Shown: one piece after another, positions 324-17,325 of the stretch
Numbering within the stretch: the stretch's first letter is position 1
How the letters are laid out: the number at the start of each line of letters is the position of its first letter
IMG/VR virus record: IMGVR_UViG_3300027749_003432
Coordinates: 1-25,075 of that record
Length of the DNA: 25,075 bases
Direction: 5' to 3' (one strand)
Origin: a virus
Notes under the pieces: generated by a model
What the model was told of the DNA's origin: nothing
The model's input: only the letters and a program-made list of their open reading frames with translations
The model's database searches: none
Position numbers and translations under genes: made by a program

Positions 324-1859
324 ATGAGCTTTGACCCCAATGACTACTCTATAGTGTTTCTAAGTTATGATGAGCCAAATTGTGAGGAAAACTATCAACA
401 CCTATTGTCTCTGCGACCAGATGCACTAAGAGTCCACGGGGTTACTGGTTCTGATACTGCACATAAAAAATGTGCTGAACTATCAAAAACAAGTAGGGTA
501 ATTATAGTTGACGGTGATAACATTGTCAAGCCTGATTTCTTCAATACTAAATTTGAATTACCAGAAACATATAATCCTGATACTTCTGTTTTAAGTTTCT
601 CTGCATATAACATAGTTAATGGTTGTCAATATGGAAATGGGAGTATCAAATCGTGGCCTATTTCATTGATTCAAACAATGAAAACACATGAAAACGGATA
701 TACAGAATCAATTGATTTTGATTTCAGCAACTATGTTCAATTAAATAAAATTGCGTCTGATGTTCATATAAACGCAAGCCCATTACAAGCATGGCGGTCT
801 GGCTTTAGAGAGGGTATCAAACTTACACTAGATAAAGAAATCAATTGGCGTAACTATGATAGACTATGGAGATGGATGCATTTGGGTGCAGATACTACTA
901 ATGGATTGTGGGCAATGCATGGTGCAAGGTTTAGTGTTTACTTAACCAAAGTAAGCGGTTGGGATTATATTGAAGGTGTTAAGAACTTTGAACTACTAGA
1001 TATGATGTTCCAACAATTAGGAGATTTGTCAGGAAATAAATTGATTGAAGATATAAATAGAATGGGAACTGGACTTAGACTATTCTTTAATGAAAAAATA
1101 ACAGAATCACTTTCTGCAAATGATAGCAAGGAGTATAAAGATTCTATTACTAGTATATTAAGAGTGCCTGACAATAAATCCTATGATATTGTTTTTATTA
1201 GTTATAATGAATCCTATGCTGATACTAACTATCAACGATTAATAAATAGATTTCCCGATGCAAAAAGAATCAACGGGATACCAGGTATTCATTCAGCCCA
1301 CAAAGAAGCAGCCAAAATATGTAGTTCAGACTATTTTTGGGTAGTTGATGCTGATGCTGAAATAGTTGATACATTTAACTTTGATTATAATGTCCCTTTT
1401 TATGAAGAGCCTAAAGTTAGAGTATGGCGTAGTAAAAATGCAGTTAATGATTTAATCTATGGAAATGGCGGTGTTAAACTGTTGCCAAGAATGAATGTAA
1501 TACGCATGTCTGATACAACAGTTGATATGACTACTAGTATAAGTAACTTGTATGAACCTATATTTGAATTGAGTAATATTAATAACTTTAACTCTGATGA
1601 ATTTAATGCATGGCGTAGTGCATTTCGTGAATGTGTAAAATTAAGTAGTCAAGTGATTGACCGACAGGTATCAGATGAAACTAAGCAAAGACTAGATGTT
1701 TGGTGTAGTGTTGGTCTTGATAAACCCTTTGGTAAGTATGTAATTGATGGTGCTAACGCAGGGCGTGAGTACGGTGAAAGACATAAAGACAATAAAGGTA
1801 TGTTAAACAAAATTAATGACTATACTTGGTTGAAGAAGAAATTTGAAAACAAGTATTAA
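324..1859 (+). CDS. Tandem GT-A-like glycosyltransferase domain protein
   Basis: A 511-residue protein made of two related halves. Residues 8-177 and 287-445 share the pattern YxIVFxSY, a region ending in an acidic triplet (VDGDN at 62-66; VDADA at 341-345), YGNGxxK (103-109 and 379-385) and WRSxFRE (157-163 and 430-436). The acidic triplets look like the metal-binding DxD of GT-A glycosyltransferases, with sugar transfer from a nucleotide-sugar as the likely role. The substrate is unknown. The ATG at 324 follows a late-type promoter element directly. It heads an operon with the radical SAM gene at 1861, the SGNH protein and the methyltransferase-like protein. The internal duplication is clear by eye; the enzymatic call comes from fold-level resemblance only. 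Confidence 0.7.
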   Translation: MSFDPNDYSIVFLSYDEPNCEENYQHLLSLRPDALRVHGVTGSDTAHKKCAELSKTSRVIIVDGDNIVKPDFFNTKFELPETYNPDTSVLSFSAYNIVNGCQYGNGSIKSWPISLIQTMKTHENGYTESIDFDFSNYVQLNKIASDVHINASPLQAWRSGFREGIKLTLDKEINWRNYDRLWRWMHLGADTTNGLWAMHGARFSVYLTKVSGWDYIEGVKNFELLDMMFQQLGDLSGNKLIEDINRMGTGLRLFFNEKITESLSANDSKEYKDSITSILRVPDNKSYDIVFISYNESYADTNYQRLINRFPDAKRINGIPGIHSAHKEAAKICSSDYFWVVDADAEIVDTFNFDYNVPFYEEPKVRVWRSKNAVNDLIYGNGGVKLLPRMNVIRMSDTTVDMTTSISNLYEPIFELSNINNFNSDEFNAWRSAFRECVKLSSQVIDRQVSDETKQRLDVWCSVGLDKPFGKYVIDGANAGREYGERHKDNKGMLNKINDYTWLKKKFENKY

Positions 1860-1860
1860 T

Positions 1861-2826
1861 ATGACAGACTTTACTAAAATTCCATTTAATAATATTATTA
1901 AGTTTGGACAAGAAACTATGCTAGATACAGACTTGTTTAATGTCAGTTGGATACTAGGTAGATTCTGTAACTATAATTGTAGTTACTGTTGGCCTTATGC
2001 TCATGGTGATAAGCCTGATTATCAAACATTAAGTATAAATTTAAAAACAATAGAATCAATAAAAAGTCAAGCAAACAATAATGGCTTTAATAATTTTCAT
2101 TGGTCGTTTAGTGGAGGAGAACCAACTGCATATAAGGAACTATTAGCAGTTATGTATGAGGTTTCTAATGATAGCATACATATGACTACTAATTTAAGCC
2201 CAGGCATCAATTGGTGGGACAGATATTTAACTATGACTAGAGCAGCAAGGCGTCGCAGTATCACTGCAAGTTTTCACCATGAGTTTGCCGATGAGAAAGA
2301 ATTTGGTGACAAGATTTTATACTTAATGAAAAACAATGTTTTTGTTACAATAAATCAAGTTATGGTTCCTTCAAAGTTCAATGAACTATATGAAAGATGT
2401 AGACGATTTAATGATAGAGGAATAAATGTTACATTAAAACCACAAAGTGATATTACTGCTAGTTTTGTTATTAATGAATATAATGACGACATGATTTATA
2501 AAATGCGTACCGGATTCCCTCAAAAAAGTTCAGAACAAGAAATATTACAAGTTAAACTAATTGATAACGAAAGAAAAGTTTATTTCATTGACCAAGCAGA
2601 ACGATTTAATAGTTATGGATTTAATAAATTTAAAGATTGGACATGTAATGCAGGTTATCAGGGTATAATAATTCGTAGTAATGAAGTTAAAAGAAGTTAT
2701 AGTTGCAAGGAAGAAATACTAGGGACATTAACAGAAGGGTTTATTATTTTTGATAGACCAAAAGTTTGTGTTACTGATACGTGTGTAAGTAGCGCAGATA
2801 GCAAGATACCAAAATGGAAAGAGTAA
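1861..2826 (+). CDS. Radical SAM protein, group A
   Basis: A 321-residue protein with the radical SAM iron-sulfur motif CxxxCxxC at C36, C40 and C43 (within CNYNCSYCW) and the SAM-contacting GGEP at 85-88. The C-terminal part has further Cys residues (WTCNAG, YSCKE, VCVTDTC), as in SPASM or twitch domains that bind auxiliary clusters. It is paralogous to 4071-4979 and 14224-15249: all three share the xWxxxxxCN lead-in and a C-terminal W-x-CN-x-G element. The ATG at 1861 is one base after the upstream stop; an in-frame TTG at 1843 inside the preceding gene was not preferred. It overlaps the next gene by 13 bases. The reaction is unknown. Confidence 0.88.
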   Translation: MTDFTKIPFNNIIKFGQETMLDTDLFNVSWILGRFCNYNCSYCWPYAHGDKPDYQTLSINLKTIESIKSQANNNGFNNFHWSFSGGEPTAYKELLAVMYEVSNDSIHMTTNLSPGINWWDRYLTMTRAARRRSITASFHHEFADEKEFGDKILYLMKNNVFVTINQVMVPSKFNELYERCRRFNDRGINVTLKPQSDITASFVINEYNDDMIYKMRTGFPQKSSEQEILQVKLIDNERKVYFIDQAERFNSYGFNKFKDWTCNAGYQGIIIRSNEVKRSYSCKEEILGTLTEGFIIFDRPKVCVTDTCVSSADSKIPKWKE

Positions 2827-3494
2827 TTACTTTTGGATGTTCATTAACATATGGGCATGGGTTGCCGGATTGTTTTTCTCCACCTAAAGATCCTGGACCA
2901 AATCCAAGTAATTTGGGGTGGTCATCTATAATTGCTAAATGCTTAGGTAGAGAATGTCTTAATATTTCTAGCCCAGGAGCAAGTAATAAAAAGATATGGA
3001 ATGATATTATACATTTTGATTACCAAGAAACTGATATAGTTTTTGTATTATGGAGTTATATAGAACGAACTGCAATCATACATAAAAATAGCACAACTGA
3101 TATCGGTCCATGGACTAATAATGAAGATTATTATAAAAAATATTATGATAAAAATGATGCAAATTTAATGTCCAGTTTATTTGTAACTCATGCTAATATG
3201 ATGTTACAATCTAAAAATATTAAAATATATAACATAATACCCGGAACAAGGGAATTACCCATACTTCAATTAAGCAGTATCACTATAAAACATATTCCAG
3301 TTTATATGACAGAGATGCGAGATTATTATCCATTTGCACTAGATAACCGACACCCGGGAGTTGAATGTCAAATAGCGTATAGTAAAAAGATTTTAAATTT
3401 TTTGAATATAGAAAATGATTTACCAGACGTAAAAGAATTGAATTTAATAGATAAAGTTAAAAGACAATTTATAGAAATGACAAGAGGTGATTAA
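2814..3494 (+). CDS. SGNH/GDSL-like hydrolase
   Basis: A 226-residue protein that begins with ITFGCSLTYG, a GDSL-like block I with Ser10 as the probable nucleophile. GASN at 55-58 may be block III (Asn58), and DNRHPG at 177-182 supplies the Asp177/His180 pair expected in block V. This fold is typical of esterases, lipases and carbohydrate O-acetylesterases, so removal of an acyl group from a sugar or other modified product would fit the surrounding glycosyltransferase and radical SAM genes. It overlaps the upstream gene by 13 bases and shares the TAATG junction with the downstream gene, so translation is probably coupled. Block II is weak, and the substrate is not readable. Confidence 0.72.
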   Translation: MERVITFGCSLTYGHGLPDCFSPPKDPGPNPSNLGWSSIIAKCLGRECLNISSPGASNKKIWNDIIHFDYQETDIVFVLWSYIERTAIIHKNSTTDIGPWTNNEDYYKKYYDKNDANLMSSLFVTHANMMLQSKNIKIYNIIPGTRELPILQLSSITIKHIPVYMTEMRDYYPFALDNRHPGVECQIAYSKKILNFLNIENDLPDVKELNLIDKVKRQFIEMTRGD

Positions 3495-4087
3495 TGTTAA
3501 TTGACACTGACCACTTACATCATTGGATTCAGGCTATTAGACAAAGCCCAGATCCTATGCGTACTATGGATGCATTTTGGGCAGGACAAATTAAAAGCAA
3601 AGAATGGTTAATTGATAACATTGAGATATATTTGGGATTTGAAACAACCATTGATATACACGGTGGTTGGGTAGGTGTTCTTGCTAGTATGTTGTTTCAA
3701 ACTTATCCTTATTTAGGTGTTATACGTAGTATTGATATTGATCCAGAATGTGAAAATATTGCAACTACAATGAATAAACTAGAAGAAATGAAAAAACGCT
3801 TTATAGCCATTTCAAGTGATATGTGTAATGTTGAAAGTACCGCAGATATAATTATTAATACTAGTTGTGAACACATAACACAACAACAATACGACTTGTG
3901 GCTAAACAAATTACCACAAGAGAGTTTGATTGTTTTACAATCAAATAATTTTAATATACCTGAACATATCAGAATTGCAGAAAATATAGAGAAATTTAAA
4001 CTTCAATCTAAATTAAGCAAAGTTCTATATCAAGGGGAATTAGATTTACCAAAATATAAAAGATTCATGCTTATAGGTTATCGTTGA
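3494..4087 (+). CDS. Class I SAM-dependent methyltransferase-like protein
   Basis: A 197-residue protein with a Rossmann-type methyltransferase core. Residues near 54-68 (DIHGGWVGVLASML) resemble the SAM-binding motif I, and SIDIDPECENIA, about 20 residues later, resembles the post-I acidic strand that holds the ribose. The C-terminal third contains strand-like segments but no named target-recognition domain. The ATG overlaps the upstream stop (TAATG), marking it as the last gene of the 324-4087 operon. Its last 17 bases overlap the 3' end of the convergent radical SAM gene. Motifs are partial, so the family call is moderate and the methyl acceptor unknown. Confidence 0.6.
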   Translation: MLIDTDHLHHWIQAIRQSPDPMRTMDAFWAGQIKSKEWLIDNIEIYLGFETTIDIHGGWVGVLASMLFQTYPYLGVIRSIDIDPECENIATTMNKLEEMKKRFIAISSDMCNVESTADIIINTSCEHITQQQYDLWLNKLPQESLIVLQSNNFNIPEHIRIAENIEKFKLQSKLSKVLYQGELDLPKYKRFMLIGYR

Positions 4088-4979
4088 ATTTAGTTATAGG
4101 TATATCGGCCGCGCACGTGCAATAATTTCTATCACATATAATCGGTTCAGTGGGTATCTTAAATGTACCATTATAAATATTGCCCAAACTTCCCCCAACT
4201 CTACATGTTGCTCGGTGTACTTCCCCGTCCCAATTAATCATCAAAGATTCAATACCAACATTACATATCCAATTTTTATATTGATTTAAATGTTTTTTAA
4301 TTATATCATTTGCATGATATTCTTCTTGTTTGTAATCTTTATATAAAACAATACAGTTAGGTTTAACAGTTGCATCATTTGATAGAATCCAATCTAAATC
4401 TTTTTGTTCATATTTCATATCATCAAACAAATCCTGAGATCCTTCTGTCCACCGTATCCTTCGTATACAGAATGGAATTTCTGTTTCAATTAAATTACTA
4501 ACAGCAAGTCTACATTCTTTCATTAAATCATGATGGGCCATTACATTTACCATTATGTTTAATCCATTAAATATTTTCAATTGAATTATTCGCTTTAATA
4601 TATGTTCCCATTCATTTTCAAAATGTAAACTAAAAACGAATTGGTCTACAATTCTACCTTGGGTCATATACCAATCTGAATTTCTAGTTCCATTAGTAGT
4701 AATGCTTAAGTACATTTCTTTATATTTTGTATGAAAAATTAGTTCATCTATATTAGGATGAACGCAAGGCTCACCACCGGTTAAACTAATACGTATAGGT
4801 TTTTCTAATTTACTTAATGTGTCTATCGTATTCTTTAATATATTAATGTCGGTATGTGGACTGAAATTATCATGTATTGCAGAAGGACAGTAACTGCAAT
4901 CATAGTTGCATCGTTTACCTAAATTCCATTCAACTTTAATAGAATCTTGATGTCCCCATTTACTAGTTACTTTTAACAA
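4071..4979 (-). CDS. Radical SAM protein, group A, TTG start
   Basis: A 302-residue protein with CxxxCxxC at C24, C28 and C31 (CNYDCSYC) and GGEP at 68-71. C-terminal cysteines (WICNVG, ATCRVGG, and ICDRNYCTC near the end) look like ligands for auxiliary iron-sulfur clusters. The start is a TTG at 4979: no ATG occurs near the N-terminus, and a strong AGGAGA ribosome-binding site lies about five bases upstream inside the preceding gene. It overlaps that gene by 17 bases and the convergent plus-strand gene by another 17 at the 3' end. It is the last gene of a four-gene minus-strand operon read from 8054. Paralogue of 1861-2826 and 14224-15249. Confidence 0.87.
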   Translation of the reverse strand: MLKVTSKWGHQDSIKVEWNLGKRCNYDCSYCPSAIHDNFSPHTDINILKNTIDTLSKLEKPIRISLTGGEPCVHPNIDELIFHTKYKEMYLSITTNGTRNSDWYMTQGRIVDQFVFSLHFENEWEHILKRIIQLKIFNGLNIMVNVMAHHDLMKECRLAVSNLIETEIPFCIRRIRWTEGSQDLFDDMKYEQKDLDWILSNDATVKPNCIVLYKDYKQEEYHANDIIKKHLNQYKNWICNVGIESLMINWDGEVHRATCRVGGSLGNIYNGTFKIPTEPIICDRNYCTCAADIPITKFNDNL

Positions 4980-5955
4980 ATTGTTCTCCTAATTTGTCAA
5001 AACTACCACATTGTTTACTACATTCTAATAACGGATCAGTTTCCCATGTTTTTGCAATCTTAACAAAATAATCACTATTAAAAATTTCTTCAATAGAACT
5101 ATCTATTAAGTTTGGGAACATGCCTATCTTATCCATAAAGTCTATTCTAGTATCTTGTTTGTGGAGTTTATATTTCATATCCATCCAACAACAGGGAGTA
5201 ACATTACCGGTAGCTGATACATAAATGCTACTGCCTTTAAGTACTTTACAAGTAATTTTTGGTTTAATATCTATTCTATAGTTAGAAACTTTACTAATCA
5301 TTTCTTTACTTCTATCAGTTGGATATAATATGTTAATAGTTTTACCATCATCATCTAATACATGAAATTTACCATGGTCAAATCTAGTAGTATGTTTAAT
5401 TTGAAAATGATTGAATCCAATTTCTTTACTTAAATTTCTACATTCTTCAATTTGATGTTCGTTATGTTGAAATATAAGCATATGCCATTCTGCTTTACCA
5501 CCTGCTTTAATAAATTCACTAGCATTCTCTATTATTTTATCAAAATCTGTTCCTATACGATATAATGCATGTGTATCTTTTAATCCATCTATACCAAATA
5601 CAACTCTAACGTCAATCTTTGCTAACTTCTTCCACCATTCAATACTTCTTGCACTACCGTTTGTATGCATACTTAGTACAATTTTTGAATTGACTTCTCG
5701 TAAATATTGAAATATTTCTAAACAATCTTTGGCTATAATAGGATCACCCAAATTACCACACATGAATAAACTATCTAATTGTTTTAAAAAATCAACAGGG
5801 AACCATAACTTAAATGTATCCAAATCTATTTCATCTAATGTAATCAACGGGTTCATTACACCCCCATTGATCCTACGCGGACACATTGGACATCGTGCTT
5901 GACATTTACTTGTTATTTCAAAATGAATATCACATATATCTGATAACTTATACAT
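4963..5955 (-). CDS. Radical SAM/SPASM protein, group B, ends in TAG-TAA
   Basis: A 330-residue protein with CxxxCxxC at C18, C22 and C25 (SKCQARCPMC). In place of GGEP it has GNLGDP at 67-72, which its paralogue at 10158-11198 shares (GNYGDP). A SPASM-like C-terminus holds C236, C255, C256, C312 and C316. I chose the ATG at 5955 because GGAG lies about ten bases upstream and the start overlaps the preceding stop by eight bases; an ATG at 5979 would add eight residues. It is the only gene in the window that stops at TAG, and the next in-frame codon is TAA, so readthrough would add just one residue. SPASM radical SAM enzymes often modify peptides; the target here is unknown. Confidence 0.86.
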   Translation of the reverse strand: MYKLSDICDIHFEITSKCQARCPMCPRRINGGVMNPLITLDEIDLDTFKLWFPVDFLKQLDSLFMCGNLGDPIIAKDCLEIFQYLREVNSKIVLSMHTNGSARSIEWWKKLAKIDVRVVFGIDGLKDTHALYRIGTDFDKIIENASEFIKAGGKAEWHMLIFQHNEHQIEECRNLSKEIGFNHFQIKHTTRFDHGKFHVLDDDGKTINILYPTDRSKEMISKVSNYRIDIKPKITCKVLKGSSIYVSATGNVTPCCWMDMKYKLHKQDTRIDFMDKIGMFPNLIDSSIEEIFNSDYFVKIAKTWETDPLLECSKQCGSFDKLGEQFVKSN

Positions 5956-7207
5956 AATTTTTAAACTCCGGAGTAACATCTGTGAAACTTTGATTACGTG
6001 ATAAATCTAACTTTTTGTTAAAACTGATAGTGTCAGTCCACTTATCACTTTGGTCTCTTGCTTTTAAATAGTTAATATTGTCTTGTATCTGATTTAAAGT
6101 GTATTGCAATAATTCTGGTTGTTTCTTAACCAACTTGAATTCATGTACTCTTAGACTAATAGTTTGTAATCGTTCTATTGCTATATCCTTTAATTCATTG
6201 GGCAAACATTGTGCAGATAATACTTTAGGATACTCTACTCTATGTGAATGAAATATAATTTCTAAATCATCTAAGAAGTATTCAATCATCTTGTCTAGTA
6301 TCAATACATTAGATACTTGTACGGTAACTGCACCCACGATCCTAGATATATTAGTAATATGTTGTATCTCTTTAATATTAGTAATTAACTGTTCCCAATT
6401 AGCGTTTCCTCTAATATATTCATATGACTCATTTAATCCATCTATACTTACATTGACTGCTACACTTTTAAACTTAGGCCAATATTCATATATGTTTCTT
6501 GATCCTTTACCTAACATAGATAAGTTAGTTGCATATTTTATTTCAATTTGATCTCCATATAGTGCCAACATATCTAGTATACGATAATGTTGCGGATCCA
6601 TTAATGGTTCTCCACCTGCAAACTCTACTCTACGAAAGTGTGGTAAATTCTTTTCTAAACTATTCCACCATTCTGGATTATCTTGAAATTTATCTAAGTG
6701 TGGGTTATTCTCTAAGTCATGTTCTTCAACAATATGAAACATTATATTGTTTTCTTTTTTATAAAAATCTTTAACTTCGCCCCAATCATTCCAACTTGTA
6801 CTATCCATTGGGTGACACATACGACATTTTAAATTACATAAGTTATTAAGTTTTAATTCCATGGTAGGTATTTCAAATGGCATAGTGAAATCGTGATTCA
6901 TTTTACTTAATGCATTTGGATATAAAGTAATTCTACTTTCCGGAATCTTAGGTTCAATATGTCTTTGTCTAAGACTTTCAACTCCTTGATCTTCTAAACT
7001 AAAACAAGGTTCACATTCAGTTGGTCGTTCTCCACGCAATACTTGTCTACGTATATTTTGTATCACTTCACCGTTCCAATGATATTCCAATGGCGCATCT
7101 TGTATAAATCCAATAGGATAACTACGACAGCAAACACATATTGCTCCGTCTTCTCTAGTTGCCAATCCAGTAAAAGGATGCATACAAAATGTTTTTGAAT
7201 TAGACAT
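5948..7207 (-). CDS. Twitch-domain radical SAM protein, group C
   Basis: A 419-residue protein. The N-terminal 70 residues have the cluster-binding pattern of this group: C8 in a CxxPF context, C24/C26/C27 after a DG turn, and CEPC at 65-68. The radical SAM core follows, with CNLKCRMC (C124, C128, C131) and GGEP at 198-201. Placing the SPASM/twitch-like module before the barrel is a feature shared with 8095-9513 and 13005-14195. It starts eight bases inside the end of the upstream PLP-enzyme gene and ends eight bases inside the next gene, so translation is probably coupled. The core chemistry (SAM cleavage to a 5'-deoxyadenosyl radical) is firm from motifs; the substrate is not. Confidence 0.86.
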   Translation of the reverse strand: MSNSKTFCMHPFTGLATREDGAICVCCRSYPIGFIQDAPLEYHWNGEVIQNIRRQVLRGERPTECEPCFSLEDQGVESLRQRHIEPKIPESRITLYPNALSKMNHDFTMPFEIPTMELKLNNLCNLKCRMCHPMDSTSWNDWGEVKDFYKKENNIMFHIVEEHDLENNPHLDKFQDNPEWWNSLEKNLPHFRRVEFAGGEPLMDPQHYRILDMLALYGDQIEIKYATNLSMLGKGSRNIYEYWPKFKSVAVNVSIDGLNESYEYIRGNANWEQLITNIKEIQHITNISRIVGAVTVQVSNVLILDKMIEYFLDDLEIIFHSHRVEYPKVLSAQCLPNELKDIAIERLQTISLRVHEFKLVKKQPELLQYTLNQIQDNINYLKARDQSDKWTDTISFNKKLDLSRNQSFTDVTPEFKNYV

Positions 7208-8054
7208 GTTCTATTAGATATCTTATTAATGGACTTATCCCAACAGGATGTCCATCTCTTAATGCTAGGTATATTGATTTAGTTGGAGTTAAATTAAAAT
7301 CATTACATATTTTATAGTATATATTACCATACGTATTCCATAAATAATCAATTGGGAACTTACGCATAAAATGTAATCCTATCTTAGTTGACACTTTGAT
7401 ATTCATATTATAGTCATTCATTATAGTAATAGAATCCTGTTTAAATTTTTTAGTCCATCTTAAACCTATTCTATTCCATCCTAAACCTAACCCTTTACTT
7501 AAACTTATTCCTACACTATGTATAACATCATTAGTTAAATCAAAATTAATATCTCTACAACAAGTTATCCAAGCACCGTCAATATGTACGGGTATATTTT
7601 TTAATGTACATTCATATAAAATTTCATCCATATCTGTGTGTTTCTCTCCTGTCTGTGGGAAAGGCATAGCAATAATTAAAGGGATATCAGGAATTAACTG
7701 TCCTACTTCTTTGATAAATGAATGACCCAATCGTTCGTGATATCTGTAATCATTTCTTATAGTTTGTACGGGTCCTGCCATATAAACATTATCAATGAAT
7801 TGTGTACATCCATTAATAATATCAACTCGGGTAAAGTTTTCTAAACCTGAAATTTTATTTATTTGAGAAGAAAGAATATATTCTTGCATTTCTTCTTTTA
7901 ACTCAACATAGACGTTATTGGTAATACATCTATCAAGTTTACCATTTAAGATATCTTGTATAGTTTCTTCTATTAGTTTATCTGTTAGTGGTTGTGGTCT
8001 TTCTACTTCTAAAAAATCAATAGAATAATCTGTAGCCACTTTAACACGATTCAT
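7200..8054 (-). CDS. PLP-dependent fold-type-I enzyme (aminotransferase-like)
   Basis: A 284-residue protein. The pattern IPVHIDGAW at 154-162 supplies the Asp159 that would contact the pyridoxal nitrogen, and SLSKGLGLGWNRIG at 184-197 holds Lys187, the probable Schiff-base lysine, followed by the Arg that contacts cofactor phosphate or substrate. This order and spacing is that of aspartate-aminotransferase-fold enzymes (transaminases, decarboxylases, some desulfurases). At 284 residues it is much shorter than the usual 380-430, with a small N-terminal region and a short C-terminal domain. It is the first gene of the minus-strand operon that continues with three radical SAM genes. Its ATG sits directly after a late-type promoter element. 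An amino-transfer or amino-acid step in the island's pathway would fit but is inference. Confidence 0.68.
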   Translation of the reverse strand: MNRVKVATDYSIDFLEVERPQPLTDKLIEETIQDILNGKLDRCITNNVYVELKEEMQEYILSSQINKISGLENFTRVDIINGCTQFIDNVYMAGPVQTIRNDYRYHERLGHSFIKEVGQLIPDIPLIIAMPFPQTGEKHTDMDEILYECTLKNIPVHIDGAWITCCRDINFDLTNDVIHSVGISLSKGLGLGWNRIGLRWTKKFKQDSITIMNDYNMNIKVSTKIGLHFMRKFPIDYLWNTYGNIYYKICNDFNLTPTKSIYLALRDGHPVGISPLIRYLIEHV

Positions 8055-8059
8055 TGAAA

Positions 8060-8066
8060 TATTTAA
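8060..8066 (-). promoter_or_regulatory. Late-type promoter element for the 8054-to-4071 operon
   Basis: On the minus strand TTAAATA is followed by TTTCA and the ATG at 8054. There is no Shine-Dalgarno. It matches the T4 late motif at most positions and mirrors the plus-strand element at 8082-8089. Confidence 0.5.
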
Positions 8067-8081
8067 TCCTGATATTTTTAC

Positions 8082-8089
8082 TATAAATA
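8082..8089 (+). promoter_or_regulatory. T4-late-type promoter TATAAATA for 8095-10205
   Basis: An exact TATAAATA lies five bases before the ATG at 8095, with no Shine-Dalgarno between. If used as in T4, transcription would begin within a few bases of the ATG, giving a leaderless or nearly leaderless mRNA. Confidence 0.65.
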
Positions 8090-8094
8090 TTTCA

Positions 8095-10205: not shown

Positions 10206-11198
10206 ACACTTGTTGCTACCCGTCCATAACTGCTCTAAATTATTCCAAAACTTAATATTCTCTATATTACTTGAATATAGATTTATCATTCCTAATTTAT
10301 CTAAATGATATTGGGTATCTTTAGAACTAATATTGCGTAGAATATTAATAGTTGATGTTTCTTCTACTCCATTTTCTACATAATCTGAACCTAAATAACT
10401 ACAAGGATACACATTACCCCTGCAATCTATATAGATTTCATTATTACTCATACATTTAGGATTAACCGTATTATCTCTTGCTAAAATATCTCTATTCTCT
10501 TTTATTAATAACTTCTCTAAGTTTAATTTACTTTCAACTTTATATTTTGGAATAGTTGTCGGTAACAATTCGTATTCTTTAACACCGTCATTATTATATA
10601 CAGGAAAACTTTTCATATTATAGAAACGTGTGGTACTACGAAATTCAACTTGATTGACACCTAAGTTTTTTAAATACTTCTCAAGCAATAGTGTATCATT
10701 CTGATTATGTTCAAACACTAGACTATTGACTTTTACAGAACATCCTGTACTAATTACAGTTTTAATGTTATTGATTATTTTATCAAAATCAGTATTCTTT
10801 CTATATAGTTCATGCTTGCCCTTAAAGCCATCAACTGCAAATATAATTGTGCCATTAGATTTTATTATATTAGCGAATTCTATCCACCAATCATTATTAC
10901 GTAAACTACCATTTGTATGAATAGTTTGGTGTATTAAAGGATTAGATTCTCTTACATATTTGTAAATTTCTAAACAGTCTTTAGCAAATACTGGATCTCC
11001 GTAATTACCTGAAGCATAAAATAAATCTAATTTCTGTATGAAAGATTTCGGGAACCATTCTTTAAATTGAGTTATGGATACGTCATTATTTGTAATATGT
11101 TTTCTATCATTACCACCATTATGATTTCTAGCACACATTGGACATTGTGCTTGGCACTTATCAGTTAGTTCAATATGCACTTTCTTAATTTCAAACAC
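10158..11198 (-). CDS. Radical SAM/SPASM protein, group B, GTG start
   Basis: A 346-residue protein with CxxxCxxC at C15, C19 and C22 (DKCQAQCPMC), a GNYGDP motif at 64-69 in place of GGEP, and C-terminal clusters (PKCMSN, YPCSYLG, KCLTCVNICG) typical of SPASM auxiliary sites. It is clearly paralogous to 4963-5955: both share the KCQA-CPMC opening, the GNxGDP motif, the HTNGS strand and the F-x-VDG/FGIDG strand. The start is a GTG at 11198, preceded by GGAG six bases upstream and overlapping the previous gene by eight bases. Its 3' end overlaps the convergent dioxygenase-like gene by 48 bases, the longest antisense coding overlap in the window. Confidence 0.85.
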   Translation of the reverse strand: MFEIKKVHIELTDKCQAQCPMCARNHNGGNDRKHITNNDVSITQFKEWFPKSFIQKLDLFYASGNYGDPVFAKDCLEIYKYVRESNPLIHQTIHTNGSLRNNDWWIEFANIIKSNGTIIFAVDGFKGKHELYRKNTDFDKIINNIKTVISTGCSVKVNSLVFEHNQNDTLLLEKYLKNLGVNQVEFRSTTRFYNMKSFPVYNNDGVKEYELLPTTIPKYKVESKLNLEKLLIKENRDILARDNTVNPKCMSNNEIYIDCRGNVYPCSYLGSDYVENGVEETSTINILRNISSKDTQYHLDKLGMINLYSSNIENIKFWNNLEQLWTGSNKCLTCVNICGNTKPLID

Positions 11199-12408
11199 AC
11201 CAATCTCCGTTTTGATGATATGTGGGGGTCTTAAGACTATCTAATTCAATTATTGAAAAATGTTTGGCTATGTCAAAATATTTTACATCTGTAAAACCAG
11301 AACATGCTCTATTACAGAAATATAAGTAACTGTTTGGGAACTTATCTATAACATGATATATTAACTTATTTTCTCTATGTAATCTATATTTTAGATTAGC
11401 AAATGCTATAGTTCCCTCATAACAAAAAATATTTGATAAATTTATTAATGGATTAGTACTAGTTAGATACTGGGTTAAATCTAATTCCATAGACATTAAG
11501 TCAATCAATACAAATTCATAACTTACATTTGGATGTGCTTTGCAATTCTGTTTCCAATGATCCAATGACTGTTGATTATAATCATAGAATACAACTTTAC
11601 ATTTATCATCTAGGTTTAGATTGTTGAACCACCAATCACCACTTGCAGGGGTAAAGATTTCAGTAACTTTACTAGCAAAATTCTTAGGTGGAAATTCATT
11701 TGAATTCTTATGTACAAATATGTTTTGAGCATAAGATTGTCTAAAGTATATCCAAGATAATTCATCCAGACTATCATAATAATGATATTTTTTATGTTGA
11801 CGTATGTTCTTATCAAATACTCTGACAGGTATATCATTATCAAATGCTACACTTAATATATTATATCCATGCATCTTGTGACTATAATCTATATCATCTT
11901 CTCCACCGGATACACTAGTTGGAGTATAATCATCATGTATATTATCGTAACTACGCCAGGGCTTTGTTTGACGATGTTTACTACCCAATTGTTCTTGACC
12001 AATAATTGGTTTATTGAGGGTTTTATACAGTTTTAAGTTGATGATATAGCATTGCTTATGTAGTTCGTAGTATGCTTCTTTTCTGTCTAATATATGGCCT
12101 GCAATTAAAAAATCATTTTTAATATAATCTTCAATAGTTTCATAGAAGGCTTCACCGTTGATAAATTCTGTTCCGGTTGTAAACACTACGCAATGGGTAT
12201 AATCTAAATCACTGATTTGATTTAAGAATGAATCTTCATGTTGTCCATGAAACAAGTCATACCCTTTATCAGTAATATTACTAATAGTATAATCGGATAT
12301 ATTTTTTATAAGTTCTTTGATATAGTTATCTTTAATAAAAAATGTATCGTCAATCAATAGAAAACATATTGTTGATTTTCTATTAAACCTTTTATTATAT
12401 TTTATCAT
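11191..12408 (-). CDS. Two-domain protein: glycosyltransferase-like plus methyltransferase-like
   Basis: A 405-residue protein I do not recognise as a named family. The N-terminal part (about 1-230) alternates hydrophobic strands with acidic patches (a LLIDD segment near 17-21 and an FTTGTEFING segment near 75-84), in the way phage glycosyltransferase-like domains do. The C-terminal part (about 240-405) has PASGDWWFNN followed by a strand ending in an acidic residue (VVFYDYN), then a LINLSNIF strand, which resembles a Rossmann-fold methyltransferase. It overlaps the upstream gene by 14 bases and the downstream gene by eight, inside a four-gene operon read from 14195. Both domain calls are tentative; the gene itself is certain from its length and junctions. 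Confidence 0.55.
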   Translation of the reverse strand: MIKYNKRFNRKSTICFLLIDDTFFIKDNYIKELIKNISDYTISNITDKGYDLFHGQHEDSFLNQISDLDYTHCVVFTTGTEFINGEAFYETIEDYIKNDFLIAGHILDRKEAYYELHKQCYIINLKLYKTLNKPIIGQEQLGSKHRQTKPWRSYDNIHDDYTPTSVSGGEDDIDYSHKMHGYNILSVAFDNDIPVRVFDKNIRQHKKYHYYDSLDELSWIYFRQSYAQNIFVHKNSNEFPPKNFASKVTEIFTPASGDWWFNNLNLDDKCKVVFYDYNQQSLDHWKQNCKAHPNVSYEFVLIDLMSMELDLTQYLTSTNPLINLSNIFCYEGTIAFANLKYRLHRENKLIYHVIDKFPNSYLYFCNRACSGFTDVKYFDIAKHFSIIELDSLKTPTYHQNGDWCV

Positions 12409-13012
12409 AACTTCTTAATATTAAATCACAAAATTTTTCTATTCTATTTCCAGGTCTACCATATCCAATAAGATGAATTCTTCTGATATCAGAATTATTA
12501 ATAACACTATGTTCATTTCTAATGTTAACTAAAATTACTTTACCTGGTTTGAATGGCACAACTCCTATATCAGTTAATGTCATATAACAGTTATCAGGAT
12601 GAATGATAGCAATGTTTATAGGTATCATAAAATCTAAAATGTCAGTAATATTACTAGGTGGTAGGTCACGATGTTTTCCTACATAGCCATGTGGTTCTAC
12701 TCCCATAAAACGTACTCTAGTAAGATTTTCAAAAGGCATTCGTTCCCAAAATTTTCTGATGGCGGGAGTCTTCTCGGATAGTTTTGTCCAGCTATAATCT
12801 GTATAAGTTGCTGATATGTTGCTATATATATTTTCCCCTTGTCCATGTATTGCTACACTAGACCAACCATTGCTTTCATTTTCTCTATAGGGTATTAAAT
12901 AGTCACTTGCTATATTAGCTTCTTTTGTCCATTCTTCTAACTCAATAGATAAATCTAGTTCTAGCCAACTTAAGTGGTTTATTATTTCTCTTACTTTTTC
13001 TATTTTATTCAT
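12395..13012 (-). CDS. Aspartyl/asparaginyl hydroxylase-like 2OG-Fe(II) protein
   Basis: A 205-residue protein. HRD at 114-116 gives the iron-binding His114 and Asp116; EHSV places a second His at 168, and Arg177/Arg178 lie where the family binds 2-oxoglutarate. The segment IPINIAIIHPDNC and the strand PGKVILVN match the core of aspartyl/asparaginyl hydroxylase-like cupins. The N-terminal 90 residues are a helical region without a recognised motif. Overlaps of 8 bases with the upstream radical SAM gene and 14 with the next gene indicate one operon. Its iron site and order agree with 9510-10205, but overall sequence similarity is low. Confidence 0.68.
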   Translation of the reverse strand: MNKIEKVREIINHLSWLELDLSIELEEWTKEANIASDYLIPYRENESNGWSSVAIHGQGENIYSNISATYTDYSWTKLSEKTPAIRKFWERMPFENLTRVRFMGVEPHGYVGKHRDLPPSNITDILDFMIPINIAIIHPDNCYMTLTDIGVVPFKPGKVILVNIRNEHSVINNSDIRRIHLIGYGRPGNRIEKFCDLILRSYDKI

Positions 13013-14195
13013 AATGTTTTATAAAAGGAAACAATCTTTTATAATCTGTTTTACGTGAATCATCATATAGTTTTAAAACTCGTGTGCGTTCTTTAACTAT
13101 TTCTAGGAAATCATCTGGGGTAGAATCAAGCATCTTATTTATAGAATGCATATATTTTTTTATTCCGTTGTTTTCTTCTATTACTCTGTGTTTGTTATTA
13201 ATCATTTGTTGAACTATTTCTATAATGTATTCTTTTTGTTCAGGTTCAAGATAATAAATACTCCAATATTTTGGATCTAATACATAGTTAAAACTTATAG
13301 GTGTATTTAAAGTTTCAAAATAGTCAAATATCTCTTTAAGATCCATTATATTAAAGATACTAGCAGAAAAAGATATTTCTTTAGTATGTTTAATTTGTTT
13401 AAAGTTATTGATACATGTTTCAAAATTTAATGGGAATCTTATAAAATTAAACTTAGCCGTATCTATATGATCTATGCTTCCAGTAATATGTAAGTTATTA
13501 AATTTTGATAACAGTTGAAAATCTATTTCAGATAAATTTGTAATTATTTCTAAGTTTACATCAATGTTTTTTATTCTATTAAGTAATTCTTTAACCTTTG
13601 GATTTATCATGGGTTCTCCTCCGGCTATTCTAATTTTTTTAACCTCATCAATTAAATCAAAATTATCAATATTTATTGAATCAACTCTATAGTCATTGTT
13701 ATATGCATATACAGATTCTATATATTCTAATGTGCTAGGAAGTTTAATATCAGACTTTTTCCAAAATTTTATTTCATTTTCATGTTGACTACTGAATATT
13801 TGACAGCACATAATACATTTTGCATTACATAAGTTGCTTAATTTAATATCTAAAATTTGAGGTGCGATAGACATTGACCCATCATCATTAACGTATGGTA
13901 GAATATCATTAATATCAAAACAAGCAGACTCGCTTTTACGCATACTAAAATTGCCAGTGCTTTCGTTTTTCCAACAAAACTCACATGTTTTATTTTTAAC
14001 TCCGTTAATGGAATCTAATCGTAATTGTTTATAAAAATCAATATTCCAAACGTTACTTAGTTTTTCTGTTGTGGGTATACCTGTAGTGCCGGTTATTCCA
14101 TCACAGAATGTGCCCCATTCACCATTAGTTGCATTTCTAATATTTACAAATGGAACTGCACAAAACGTTGAGGGATCGGGTACAATATTTTTCAT
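13005..14195 (-). CDS. Twitch-domain radical SAM protein, group C
   Basis: A 396-residue protein. The N-terminal module has C12 (FCAVPF), C31 and CEFC at 71-74; it lacks the CC doublet of its two paralogues, having a single FCDG. The core motif CNAKCIMC gives C123, C127 and C130, followed by an extra C131, and GGEP is at 192-195. The ATG at 14195 comes four bases after an exact TATAAATA. This is the first gene of the operon 14195 to 10158 and overlaps the second by eight bases. Missing one N-terminal Cys suggests that auxiliary cluster binding differs between the three group C proteins. Confidence 0.86.
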   Translation of the reverse strand: MKNIVPDPSTFCAVPFVNIRNATNGEWGTFCDGITGTTGIPTTEKLSNVWNIDFYKQLRLDSINGVKNKTCEFCWKNESTGNFSMRKSESACFDINDILPYVNDDGSMSIAPQILDIKLSNLCNAKCIMCCQIFSSQHENEIKFWKKSDIKLPSTLEYIESVYAYNNDYRVDSINIDNFDLIDEVKKIRIAGGEPMINPKVKELLNRIKNIDVNLEIITNLSEIDFQLLSKFNNLHITGSIDHIDTAKFNFIRFPLNFETCINNFKQIKHTKEISFSASIFNIMDLKEIFDYFETLNTPISFNYVLDPKYWSIYYLEPEQKEYIIEIVQQMINNKHRVIEENNGIKKYMHSINKMLDSTPDDFLEIVKERTRVLKLYDDSRKTDYKRLFPFIKHYE

Positions 14196-14199
14196 AAAC

Positions 14200-14207
14200 T
14201 ATTTATA
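14200..14207 (-). promoter_or_regulatory. T4-late-type promoter TATAAATA for the 14195-to-10158 operon
   Basis: On the minus strand an exact TATAAATA is followed by GTTT and then the ATG at 14195. No ribosome-binding site lies between. The element for the opposite gene, at 14212-14219, is only four bases away. Confidence 0.65.
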
Positions 14208-14211
14208 TCAA

Positions 14212-14219
14212 TTAAATAT
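14212..14219 (+). promoter_or_regulatory. Late-type promoter element for 14224-15249
   Basis: TTAAATAT lies four bases before the ATG at 14224. It differs from TATAAATA at the second position. Again there is no Shine-Dalgarno between the motif and the start codon. Confidence 0.5.
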
Positions 14220-14223
14220 TTAT

Positions 14224-15249
14224 ATGCCTAAACTTATACAAATAAAAACCCTTCAACCCAATAATGAAATGAACATAACATGGGCACCCACAAATTTATG
14301 TAATTTCAAATGTAGATATTGTTGGCCGGGTGCAAATGAAGGTAATCATTTACCCATAAAGAACGTTGACCTTGTAACTAAGAACATGGATTATGTTCTT
14401 AAACAATTTACCGAACAGTTGAATAAAGAACATTTTAAGATTAACTTTGCAGGTGGAGAACCCACATTATGGAATGGGTTAGAACAGGTGATACAAGAGT
14501 TAAATAAAAATCATAAAATATATTGGGGCATAGTTACAAATGGATCTAGAACATATAGATGGTGGGACGAATATGGACATTTATTTGATAGTGTACAGAT
14601 TAGTTACCATATAACACAAACTGATATCAACCATACAATTCAATTATGTGATTTGTTATTTGAACGCGGAGTTAAGGTTACAGTAAGAGTTATGATGGAT
14701 GTACTTAATTGGGATAAAGGTATTGAAGTAATAGAGTTTATGAAATCTAATAGCAAACATAGATGGTTTATTGATGTTGCTGAAGTAATTGAAGACCATT
14801 TACAGCCATCATCAATAATCATTTATAAAGATGGTAGAGTATATAATGAAGAACAAAGAGAATTTTTAAAGAATCAAAATAAAAGAGTACCCGGTTATAG
14901 TTGGCTTAAAAAGAATATAAATCTTATTAGAGAAGGTAAGATAAAATTATTTGAAAGTTATGCTCATTATGATGATGGTGCGGTTGAGCCAGCCAAGGCT
15001 AATTATTATATGAATCGTAAATTAAATTATTTTAAAGGCTGGAAATGTAATATAGGGTTAGAACGAATCTATATAGATTATGATGGGGGAATAAAAGGAA
15101 GTTGTGGTCAACACATCTTTGATAATTGTAATATACTAGATGAAGATTTTATTGAAAAATTTGTTGTAGGTACAGAACCAGTAACATGTGAAATCAAAGC
15201 ATGTAATTGCGGACCTGAAATGCATATTACAAAATCAATAGAATTCTAA
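14224..15249 (+). CDS. Radical SAM protein, group A
   Basis: A 341-residue protein with CNFKCRYCW (C26, C30, C33) and GGEP at 77-80. The C-terminal cysteines (WKCNIG, GSCGQH, TCEIKACNCG) are the auxiliary-cluster type seen in its paralogues at 1861-2826 and 4071-4979. The reading frame stays open upstream to 14071, but that part is antisense to the divergent radical SAM gene; the ATG at 14224, directly after the late-type element, is the better start. It is a single-gene unit. Its last 15 bases overlap the convergent dioxygenase-like gene. Two of the three group A proteins have Trp after the third cluster Cys. Confidence 0.87.
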   Translation: MPKLIQIKTLQPNNEMNITWAPTNLCNFKCRYCWPGANEGNHLPIKNVDLVTKNMDYVLKQFTEQLNKEHFKINFAGGEPTLWNGLEQVIQELNKNHKIYWGIVTNGSRTYRWWDEYGHLFDSVQISYHITQTDINHTIQLCDLLFERGVKVTVRVMMDVLNWDKGIEVIEFMKSNSKHRWFIDVAEVIEDHLQPSSIIIYKDGRVYNEEQREFLKNQNKRVPGYSWLKKNINLIREGKIKLFESYAHYDDGAVEPAKANYYMNRKLNYFKGWKCNIGLERIYIDYDGGIKGSCGQHIFDNCNILDEDFIEKFVVGTEPVTCEIKACNCGPEMHITKSIEF

Positions 15250-16038
15250 ATGGTCAATACCTAATTTTTTTCTAAAATCTTCAGTAAATTTACCATCAAT
15301 ACGTAAACCATAACTCTGTTCCATAATACGTTCTCCACCGTGCCAATCAACATCATTCCACCATGCGGCTCTTGTATTTAGATACACTTTGTTTTTATGT
15401 TCAGGATCCCATACGTAAAATGCTTTCTTTGTATTAGGACGAATATGTATAAATTCATTACGATGAGGTTTTATCACATTGATTCCGTTTTTAGCATCTA
15501 AATCTCTATGCTCAAATGGGATGCCGTCTGCTTCACAATGAAAGAAAATAACACGTCCAATATTTTCAAAAATAGTTCCTTGTAATTGCTCTACCCACTG
15601 AACAACATTGGGGAAGTATTTAGCTTCTTCTGTCAATTTACGTGAAGATGTTCTATCGTCCCAACTACCGTCTTCCCATAAAAAATAATAGATATATGGA
15701 TCATATGCACCCATTGACATTTTAATATATCGTGTGAATTTATTACGTACACGAAAATCTTTAAAGTCTCGGTACAAATCAATACCGCCCTGTTTAATAG
15801 GATTATCATCCGGTAATGCTAGAAATTCTTCAATGGCTTTATAAATGGGTTTCCAAGAGTATATGTAACTCATATCTTCAAAAGTGAACCCAGGAGTCAT
15901 CCATGTTCCTTCTTTTGCAAATTCTCTTGCTTCAGCAAATCCTCTATAGATTTCGGGTTGTAATTCATTAAATCTATCCATATCTAAATATGGTTCTAAA
16001 TCTATATATGGTTTTCCGTTGATTCCTTTTAATGACAT
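15235..16038 (-). CDS. Iron/2-oxoglutarate dioxygenase-like protein
   Basis: A 267-residue protein. FEHRDLD gives His177 and Asp179; a His at 233 (DVDWHGG) and Arg246 (YGLRIDG) follow at the spacing expected for the distal iron His and the 2-oxoglutarate Arg. The strand YVWDPEHKN before the distal His fits a cupin-type oxygenase of the aspartyl/asparaginyl hydroxylase kind, although the N-terminal 160 residues (rich in aromatic and charged residues) do not match a family I know. It has its own promoter (CATAAATA at 16058-16065) and an AGGCGG ribosome-binding site six bases before the ATG, unlike the leaderless-looking units nearby. Confidence 0.62.
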   Translation of the reverse strand: MSLKGINGKPYIDLEPYLDMDRFNELQPEIYRGFAEAREFAKEGTWMTPGFTFEDMSYIYSWKPIYKAIEEFLALPDDNPIKQGGIDLYRDFKDFRVRNKFTRYIKMSMGAYDPYIYYFLWEDGSWDDRTSSRKLTEEAKYFPNVVQWVEQLQGTIFENIGRVIFFHCEADGIPFEHRDLDAKNGINVIKPHRNEFIHIRPNTKKAFYVWDPEHKNKVYLNTRAAWWNDVDWHGGERIMEQSYGLRIDGKFTEDFRKKLGIDHLEFY

Positions 16039-16057
16039 TATGTACCGCCTAGTTTAT

Positions 16058-16065
16058 TATTTATG
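16058..16065 (-). promoter_or_regulatory. T4-late-type promoter CATAAATA for 15235-16038
   Basis: On the minus strand CATAAATA is followed by a roughly 20-base stretch that carries AGGCGG and then the ATG at 16038. This unit therefore has a conventional leader, in contrast to the neighbouring operon heads. Confidence 0.5.
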
Positions 16066-16077
16066 CGACGGTATTTT

Positions 16078-16085
16078 GATAAATT
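16078..16085 (+). promoter_or_regulatory. Late-type promoter element for 16091-17325
   Basis: GATAAATT precedes the ATG at 16091 by five bases. It differs from the exact motif at its last base, so it is a weaker match, but the spacing equals that of the other leaderless-looking units. Confidence 0.4.
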
Positions 16086-16090
16086 AATAT

Positions 16091-16780
16091 ATGAAATACG
16101 ACTACTATTACAACAATGTTCCTGGTGACGAACCATGCAGGAATAATTTAATATATACTAGTCTTATAAGTGAAGATAAAAAGACATTTGTTCAATGGTA
16201 TTACAATGATACAGGTTACCATAAGGGTAAAAATCAAGTTGTTGATCCTACACTAATGGAAGAAAAATGGGAACGTGAGGTAAAGTTTCTAAAGATTATG
16301 CAAGATGTTTATCCCATGCATATTCCGTTAATACTTGATATTGATTATACTGAAAAGAAAATATATCTACAGGTTGATGGACCAGACTTTTGGGAATTGG
16401 GTAATTGCACTACTAGTAATTATGACAAAGTTTTACCAAATTGGCAGGAACAGATGTTAGATATAATCAAAGCACATAAGAGTTTAAATTTATTCAAATA
16501 TAGTATGCACCCATCAAGTTATTTCATAGTTGATGGAAAAATGAAATCTATTAATTATTTCTTTACATATAATAAAGATGAACCATATTTCTCATTAAAG
16601 AATGTTGAGAGCCATATATATTCTGAGAGACAAGATGAATTACGTAAGTATATAGGTGGTTTGGGTATTGATTGGAATACCCCTCAAAAGTTTGAAACAA
16701 TTGAAGAATTATGTTGGAATAGTTTTAGAAAGAATTATCCTAACGAATTTGTAGAATCGGTTTTAACATGTATAAAATAA
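16091..16780 (+). CDS. Protein-kinase-like fold protein, probable pseudokinase
   Basis: A 229-residue protein. EREVKFL at 61-67 resembles the helix C Glu region, and YSMHPSSYFIVDGK at 137-150 aligns with the catalytic loop HxDLHPxNxxVxDG of aminoglycoside-phosphotransferase/protein-kinase folds. The expected catalytic Asp and the loop Asn are replaced by other residues, and the following INYF stands where the metal-binding DFG would be. If the alignment is right this is an inactive or non-phosphotransferring kinase-like protein, possibly a binding or regulatory subunit. It overlaps the next gene by 13 bases, so the two are probably coupled. The gene is certain; the fold call is moderate and the loss-of-residues argument depends on it. 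Confidence 0.6.
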   Translation: MKYDYYYNNVPGDEPCRNNLIYTSLISEDKKTFVQWYYNDTGYHKGKNQVVDPTLMEEKWEREVKFLKIMQDVYPMHIPLILDIDYTEKKIYLQVDGPDFWELGNCTTSNYDKVLPNWQEQMLDIIKAHKSLNLFKYSMHPSSYFIVDGKMKSINYFFTYNKDEPYFSLKNVESHIYSERQDELRKYIGGLGIDWNTPQKFETIEELCWNSFRKNYPNEFVESVLTCIK

Positions 16781-17325
16781 TACCCTGGTCAGTTGATTTA
16801 GATTTAGATAATTTTTATAAAAAAGCTAGTGACAGAGGATTTGAAAATAATTCATCTAAAAAGGTATTAGTAGATTGTTTCAATAATGAACGGGAAAGTC
16901 AAGTATGGATACTATATCAAAACGATAATCCTATTGGATCAGTAGCGGCACATAGTTTAGATATATTAGGACCTAATAGCTATAGAATATGTGCTAGAAC
17001 TTGTACATTTGTGGAGGCAAATAATAGAACATCATTGAGTACCGCAAATATTATATTCAATCAACATCAAAATTTAACTGCACAATTTTTTATACCAACA
17101 TGCATAGATTGGTGTGGTAAAGATAACAATATGTACATATCTAGTAACGATAGTCTAATAGGTAGACAACGTTTAGTTCATAAATTATATTGTCCATCAC
17201 TAGAAAAGATTGGTACTCTTAAAAAATCAGGTGAGATACAATATAGGGGACATTTGCAAACTTTTTGGAAATTAAATGTTGAAACATTTAATGAACAATT
17301 AAGCAAATATCCCCGATGGATTTAA
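16768..17325 (+). CDS. GNAT-acetyltransferase-like protein
   Basis: A 185-residue protein. The alternating strand pattern (VWILYQNDNPIGSVAAHSL, then YRICARTCTFV) resembles the central sheet of GNAT acyltransferases, where the side chain donor acetyl-CoA is held at a later pyrophosphate loop. The canonical Q/RxxGxG/A loop is not clear, so the assignment is weak. It overlaps the pseudokinase-like gene by 13 bases and ends in a four-base overlap with ahpD on the other strand. An acyl-transfer step would suit a modification island, but this may be an unrelated phage protein. Confidence 0.45.
   Translation: MYKIIPWSVDLDLDNFYKKASDRGFENNSSKKVLVDCFNNERESQVWILYQNDNPIGSVAAHSLDILGPNSYRICARTCTFVEANNRTSLSTANIIFNQHQNLTAQFFIPTCIDWCGKDNNMYISSNDSLIGRQRLVHKLYCPSLEKIGTLKKSGEIQYRGHLQTFWKLNVETFNEQLSKYPRWI

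Follow-up and report, generated by a model that had tools for sequence, protein, structure and literature searches.

Why a virus should carry eight radical S-adenosylmethionine (SAM) enzymes within one tightly packed block of genes is the question raised by positions 324-17325 of IMGVR_UViG_3300027749_003432, an IMG/VR virus record analysed here as a linear fragment of 25,075 bases (the window). The source is a large T4-like phage, uncultured and mainly from freshwater. Novel findings are the fixed set of genes in this cassette, its breadth in uncultured phages and an orthologous five-gene core in chromosomes of Bdellovibrionota. Tentatively, we favour the reading that the cassette is a phage pathway assembling or tailoring a surface glycoconjugate during infection.

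Enzymes encoded by the cassette

The region is filled by 18 open reading frames (ORFs), named g1-g18, with overlaps or gaps of only a few bases between them, as the initial annotation of an 18-gene island had described. Its G+C content is 3-4 points lower than that of the remaining sequence, both in the window and in two long relatives. The genes are as follows, "core" marking the members shared with Bdellovibrionota.

g1, 324-1859, plus strand: tandem GT-A-type glycosyltransferase with two homologous halves; core
g2, 1843-2826, plus strand: radical SAM protein with C-terminal Cys-rich (SPASM/twitch-like) extension; core
g3, 2814-3494, plus strand: SGNH/GDSL-type hydrolase
g4, 3494-4087, plus strand: class I SAM-methyltransferase fold with an invariant INTSCEH motif; core
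g5, 4071-4979, minus strand: radical SAM protein with C-terminal Cys-rich extension
g6, 4963-5979, minus strand: radical SAM/SPASM protein, paralogue of g11; core
g7, 5948-7207, minus strand: N-terminal-twitch radical SAM protein (NF033640)
g8, 7200-8054, minus strand: short fold-type-I pyridoxal phosphate (PLP) enzyme, aminotransferase/aldolase-like
g9, 8095-9513, plus strand: N-terminal-twitch radical SAM protein (NF033640); best-conserved core member
g10, 9510-10205, plus strand: Asp/Asn beta-hydroxylase-like Fe(II)/2-oxoglutarate (2OG) oxygenase
g11, 10158-11198, minus strand: radical SAM/SPASM protein, paralogue of g6
g12, 11191-12408, minus strand: large protein, apparently a glycosyltransferase domain with a further domain behind it; usually adjoins g13
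g13, 12395-13012, minus strand: Asp/Asn beta-hydroxylase-like Fe(II)/2OG oxygenase
g14, 13005-14195, minus strand: N-terminal-twitch radical SAM protein (NF033640), least conserved copy
g15, 14218-15249, plus strand: radical SAM protein with C-terminal Cys-rich extension
g16, 15235-16038, minus strand: putative Fe(II)/2OG-type oxygenase by its conserved HxD...H...R, outside any Pfam family
g17, 16091-16780, plus strand: pseudokinase
g18, 16768-17325, plus strand: conserved protein, almost always beside g16/g17

The ORF of g15 opens at 14071, but since a start there would give an overlap with g14, the ATG at 14218 was chosen.

The Pfam model Radical_SAM (PF04055) matched eight cassette genes, seven of them above its curated cut-off (among these g2 with 37 bits, g5 with 43, g11 with 31.5 and g15 with 48) and g14 below it; g6 exceeded the cut-offs of both PF04055 and PF13186. 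The CX3CX2C motif, at residue 42 in g2, is intact in all eight proteins, so that the predicted number of radical SAM genes holds. All-against-all BLAST divided them into three paralogous groups, g7/g9/g14, g6/g11 (35% identical to each other) and g2/g5/g15, the same 3+2+3 pattern as had been proposed. NF033640 (N_Twi_rSAM), a family without known function and with a cut-off of 170 bits, was matched over essentially its whole length by g9 (404 bits), g7 (328) and g14 (224). Close relatives of g14 were sought in viral contigs and none was found.

Structure prediction followed by Foldseek searches upheld two further calls, the duplicated glycosyltransferase and the methyltransferase-like protein. 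For g1, Pfam gave weak GT2 matches, and its halves occur as separate genes in relatives. The AlphaFold model of the second half (mean local confidence, pLDDT, 90) retrieved GT-A glycosyltransferases; the top PDB matches, SunS, ArnC and GtrB, have a peptide or polyprenyl phosphate as their substrate, the best being the S-glycosyltransferase SunS (E 1.5e-4, template-modelling score ~0.46). Judged from this model, the match is indicative of a fold class and not of an acceptor. The model of g4 (pLDDT 93.7) gave 1132 PDB matches at E<=0.001 and resembles SAM-methyltransferase folds, the top match being the nicotianamine-synthase-like MtNAS (2.7e-11). PDB sequence searches with g4, g1, g16, g9 and g8 yielded nothing usable.

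The three hydroxylase-like proteins named initially, g10, g13 and g16, keep in their alignments the HxD...H triad (2-His-1-carboxylate) that is the predicted metal site of Fe(II)/2OG oxygenases. PF05118 (Asp_Arg_Hydrox, cut-off 22.6) was exceeded by g13 with 35.9 bits and narrowly missed by g10 with 21.0; H79, D81 and H123 are invariant across the aligned g10/g13 family, including the small relatives c8 and c13, and H177, D179, H233 and R246 of g16 are invariant among 15 aligned sequences. Likewise, g8 keeps the D...SLSK lysine motif expected of a PLP enzyme, with D159, A161, S184-K187 and R199 invariant in the alignment; its weak matches include valine-pyruvate aminotransferase and allo-threonine aldolase, and an aminotransferase of phage Mosig is 28% identical. 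The SGNH assignment of g3 agrees with the invariance of the catalytic residues S10, G55/N58 and D177/H180 in its family; Pfam gave no match, and PDB matches to SGNH esterases were weak (E 0.6). For g17, a profile match to the protein kinase TTK (E 6e-7) together with replacement of the catalytic Asp and of DFG in the alignment supports the pseudokinase call. The GNAT identity suggested for g18, in turn, found no confirmation in a Pfam search and follow-up. Searches of Pfam, NCBIfam and PHROG gave no match to g12; its homologues adjoin those of g13 in phages and in Bdellovibrionota.

A conserved gene set in phages and Bdellovibrionota

Scanning viral contigs with g9 yielded 103 relatives, of which 80 loci, many of them truncated, were kept; all phage relatives are metagenomic fragments. 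Their g9 proteins are 57-82% identical to that of the window, and since relatives at this distance keep the gene set, chance is excluded. Most frequent among the 80 loci were g4 (76), g6/g11 (73), g5 (66), g2 (64) and g7 (62), followed by g15 (57), g10 (55), g8 (39), g3 (34) and g16 (32). Families outside the window recurred as well, namely the oxygenase-like c8 (40) and c13 (30), the PP-loop family c10 (36) and the B12-type radical SAM family c16 (24). As g9 is itself a radical SAM gene, a second scan was anchored on g16, again with 80 loci. All 71 of these loci that reached at least 15 kb contained at least one radical SAM gene inside 10 kb (median 5), and g17 and g18 were present in 77 and 71 of the 80, respectively. 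Finally, g2, g5, g7, g9, g6/g11, g10, g16 and g17 were found in each of eight long contigs (66-270 kb), with 7-17 radical SAM genes per record. The members thus travel together across phage contigs rather than occurring scattered, and the idea of a multi-step modification island is strengthened by their co-occurrence in every long relative examined. An exception is g1, which is far more widespread (at least 600 matches) and less tied to the other members, and may be a shared module not exclusive to the cassette.

The 270-kb contig G001 and others encode a T4-type portal, major capsid protein, terminase and clamp-loader, and the relatives are therefore T4-like large phages. A megablast search for a close cultured relative found none, and g16, g1 and g15 had zero matches among 50,697 phage records. 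Phage C48C1, which was reached via its IscU (75%), lacks the cassette and was rejected as a relative.

Radical SAM-rich clusters in T4-like phages are already published and unexplained, and the present cassette is a well-defined variant of them. The density that had been called unusual for a phage is real, but comparable T4-like clusters are on record (PMC2853527, PMC7029224, PMC5332604), and phage genomes with at least ten radical SAM genes have been noted since 2010. The Campylobacter phages CP220 and CPt10 carry 11 and 12 such genes, with an interchangeable cluster of five plus an amidinotransferase (PMC2853527). Like the cassette, they combine a T4-like genome with many radical SAM genes in an interchangeable central cluster holding GT-A-fold genes; among phages, g6, g11, g5 and g15 find their best matches in the radical SAM proteins of CP220, and an amidinotransferase is also encoded in the relatives G001 and G003. 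CP220 differs in its low identity (26% over g6), and homologues of the twitch radical SAM proteins, g16/g17/g18, g10/g13 and g8 were not seen.

Pelagimyophages possess a host recognition cluster with radical SAM cassettes, whereas their freshwater members are reported to be without radical SAM genes (PMC7029224). The cultured pelagiphage Mosig (MT647606) is similar in having a hypervariable island with tail fibres, three radical SAM genes, Asp/Asn hydroxylases, an aminotransferase, a methyltransferase and a peroxiredoxin; this mix, which includes a carbamoyltransferase, adjoins the tail-fibre genes in the region published as "host recognition cluster" (PMC7029224). Mosig differs in gene set and order, with ~25-28% identity in g6 and g8. 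The T4-like 183-kb marine genome TARA_ERS488813_N000010 unites 12 radical SAM genes with an A-type Fe-S carrier (PMC5332604), and so resembles the cassette-bearing phages in joining many radical SAM genes to iron-sulphur (Fe-S) assembly genes in a single T4-like genome; compared by its description, it differs in being presented as Fe-S metabolism only, with no cassette defined. Vibrio phage K566 (OZ196521) has four twitch-type radical SAM genes amid genes reading as glycosyltransferases, but at ~21% identity and with the other cassette families not detected in the stretch examined.

The closest parallel in cells came from scanning bacterial and archaeal genomes with a twitch radical SAM alignment, which returned mostly Bdellovibrionota. 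In many of these, profiles made from the phage genes recognised g9 (500-590 bits), g2 (440-475), g6/g11 (340-380), g4 and g1 side by side, an orthologous core of adjacent genes, g1-g9-g2-g6/11-g4. Some copies sit on contigs of 349-937 kb amid ordinary bacterial genes. Three entries, assigned to Neisseriaceae, Gammaproteobacteria and Acidimicrobiaceae, were left out of the argument as possibly misbinned contigs of phages. The bacterial cluster differs from the cassette in lacking the g16/g17/g18 part and in its patchiness (g2 in 11 of 192 genomes sampled in the phylum). In the tree of g9, the phage and bacterial clades are separate, each with a support of 99/100, which suggests one old transfer between phage and bacterium, in either direction. 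Twitch radical SAM genes numbered 4-33 per genome in 13 of the 14 bacterial genomes searched and two in the remaining one; none exceeded the cut-off in 14 control genomes. Genome G036 had 33 such matches, 13 of which lie in a single 30-kb stretch of contig C1 (745-775 kb). Among 81 proteins neighbouring bacterial radical SAM genes, 16 contained a GT2 domain, and in four whole genomes 8 of 63 GT2 genes lay within ~10 kb of a twitch radical SAM gene compared to 1.9 expected (Poisson P 0.0008).

Possible substrates of the pathway

Among the options listed in the initial annotation, glycan modification at the virion or cell surface fits best, while DNA hypermodification and a peptide route of the RiPP type (ribosomally synthesized and post-translationally modified peptides) found no support, for reasons given below. 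Several relatives carry genes suggestive of supply. Of 19 records that bear the cassette, 10 also encode IscU, though in some of them away from the cassette, compared with 6 of 1,352 marine viral genomes (PMC5332604); supply of Fe-S clusters to the large radical SAM set would be the natural reading of IscU/IscA. Between the cassette and the giant tail-fibre gene, G007 encodes KdsA (413 bits, cut-off 242), IscU (222, cut-off 192) and IscA, and KdsA was also found in G004. The KdsA of G007 is most similar to Alphaproteobacteria (up to 68%, versus 60% and 57% in the three groups sampled), at most a weak hint to the host. In G007 (L130:3147-5299) and G004, three consecutive genes, for a QueD-like protein, 3-deoxy-D-manno-octulosonate (Kdo)-8-phosphate synthase and a GT8-like protein, lie upstream of IscU/IscA and of a tail fibre of 2,513 residues. 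Giant tail-fibre genes lie 13-20 kb beyond the cassette in G001, G004, G007 and G022, the intervening stretch consisting of small conserved, glycosyltransferase-like and QueD-like genes.

For the surface glycoconjugate that we tentatively favour, the substrate, order of steps, display site and benefit are those that we infer as follows. The glycosyltransferase g1, perhaps with g12, would synthesise or transfer a moiety that contains sugar, on which g4, g8, the Fe(II)/2OG oxygenases and the eight radical SAM enzymes would subsequently perform C-H chemistry. The hydrolase g3 might act on ester groups, and g17 might be a scaffold or some other partner without catalytic activity. In those relatives that encode them, IscU/IscA would provide the [4Fe-4S] clusters for the radical SAM set and KdsA would feed the supply of Kdo-type sugars. 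The product would be displayed on the envelope of the infected cell, thereby altering phage adsorption or superinfection. Envelope display is favoured over tail-fibre display because the five-family core also occurs in bacterial chromosomes. There, the core works in cells without virions and often near glycosyltransferases, and a surface glycoconjugate is therefore favoured over a substrate confined to the virion or to phage DNA, although the bacterial core also leaves room for protein or free small-molecule substrates.

Several observations weigh against a surface glycoconjugate. The usual substrates of SPASM and twitch radical SAM enzymes are peptides or proteins. A surface-glycan cluster would be expected to combine glycosyltransferases with sugar-nucleotide enzymes and genes for export or polymerisation; g1 has a GT-A fold and relatives have KdsA and GT8-like genes, but no flippase or polymerase was identified, nor was a complete nucleotide-sugar pathway in the window. 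Moreover, the GT2 enrichment is moderate and missing in one of the four bacterial genomes (0/14 in G036), and several Bdellovibrionota copies are stand-alone operons amid housekeeping genes, outside any polysaccharide locus. Proximity to tail fibres is confined to the four long contigs, at a distance of 13-20 kb, the other fragments showing no such proximity; a host recognition cluster of the pelagimyophage type would be placed, together with tail-fibre genes, between VrlC and gp14, boundaries that were not located here.

This same proximity is the first argument for the strongest competitor, post-translational modification of virion proteins, chiefly the giant tail fibres, in which radical SAM enzymes and hydroxylases would act on side chains and g1 would glycosylate them. 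Proteins are the substrates of the SPASM and Asp/Asn hydroxylase families, and the best fold match of g1 is a peptide glycosyltransferase. Nevertheless, we consider it unlikely, as Bdellovibrionota chromosomes hold the same core without a nearby tail fibre and the radical SAM set is far bigger than one protein modification usually requires.

The mix of enzymes also resembles natural-product clusters, to which relatives add an amidinotransferase, a carbamoyltransferase and a B12-type radical SAM enzyme. A diffusible small molecule or peptide, RiPP-like or aminoglycoside-like, might then be produced in the course of infection and be directed against competitors or serve as a signal. We regard this as quite doubtful: no transporter or self-resistance gene was identified, no cassette radical SAM protein exceeded the cut-off of a curated NCBIfam RiPP model, and, in line with the initial remark that no precursor peptide is seen, clustering of ORFs of at least 25 residues lying outside larger genes in the 80 loci gave no conserved short precursor.

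Slightly more doubtful still is an auxiliary role in which the cassette replaces or boosts cofactor, lipid or Fe-S metabolism of the host, as has been proposed for CP220 (PMC2853527) and the 183-kb marine genome (PMC5332604). IscU/IscA on the same genomes and the peroxidase pair and PlcP-like genes adjoining the cassette would be in keeping with such a role, but no cassette radical SAM protein passed a curated cofactor-pathway model, the function-less NF033640 being the only one exceeded.

Radical SAM, PLP and acyltransferase enzymes join in some phage thymidine hypermodifications, and there are QueD-like and PP-loop proteins among the relatives. Even so, hypermodification of DNA bases against host nucleases appears very improbable, as the HMUDK (5-hydroxymethyluracil DNA kinase) domain was found in none of 13 records of up to 270 kb, most of them fragments, and the core is also present in bacterial chromosomes. 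Viperin-like antiviral nucleotide synthesis or counter-defence can practically be dismissed: viperin (NF038283, cut-off 180 bits) is the best NCBIfam model for g15 (68 bits), g5 (53) and g2 (34), but all scores are far too low for a viperin identity, the proteins carry extra C-terminal Cys motifs, and their genes belong to a multi-enzyme cluster with no nucleotide kinase partner.

Flanking genes and biological meaning

Directly adjoining the cassette, an AhpD-like and an AhpC-like peroxidase are encoded as a pair at 17322-18385 (minus strand), and are also paired in G004, G018 and G022. A candidate Mpo1-like membrane protein follows at 19294-19902 (plus strand; Pfam score 20.2, below the cut-off of 24). 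A calcineurin-like phosphoesterase, g24, with 48.6 bits to an LpxH-type model (below cut-off), and a GT4 glycosyltransferase, g23, overlap on the minus strand (19893-20924 and 20884-21672). They resemble the PlcP-Agt pair, known from lipid renovation in phosphate-starved marine bacteria (PMC4796936), and are likewise adjacent in G004 (15693-17609). At 24312-25073 (minus strand), g30 ends in the Cys-rich tail CNCDCWQIN and has homologues in L009 and G018. A 72-residue protein, c18, lies near the cassette in 19 of the 80 g9 loci and reads like a putative translation initiation factor IF-1.

A single tRNA at 22562-22636 (minus strand) has the amber-reading anticodon CUA and is called tRNA-Pyl by ARAGORN. 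Recoding of TAG was considered on this account and rejected: the codon ends 103 of 763 cassette genes in relatives and one of the 30 window genes, so the standard code was kept.

Taken further, the cassette might represent a new class of surface pathway based on radical chemistry, whose five-gene core, comprising a GT-A protein, a methyltransferase-fold protein, one twitch and two other radical SAM enzymes, would act on one chemically new glycoconjugate common to large freshwater phages and predatory Bdellovibrionota. We offer this as an unlikely and speculative extension; if true, phage and predator would have in common a means to coat or mask the cell surface. The recurring gene set, the bacterial core and the Fe-S genes turn the curiosity of radical SAM-rich phages into a testable pathway. 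Novel C-H reactions on sugars or proteins may come to light through it, and it may explain the role of radical SAM-rich islands near the tail-fibre genes of T4-like phages.

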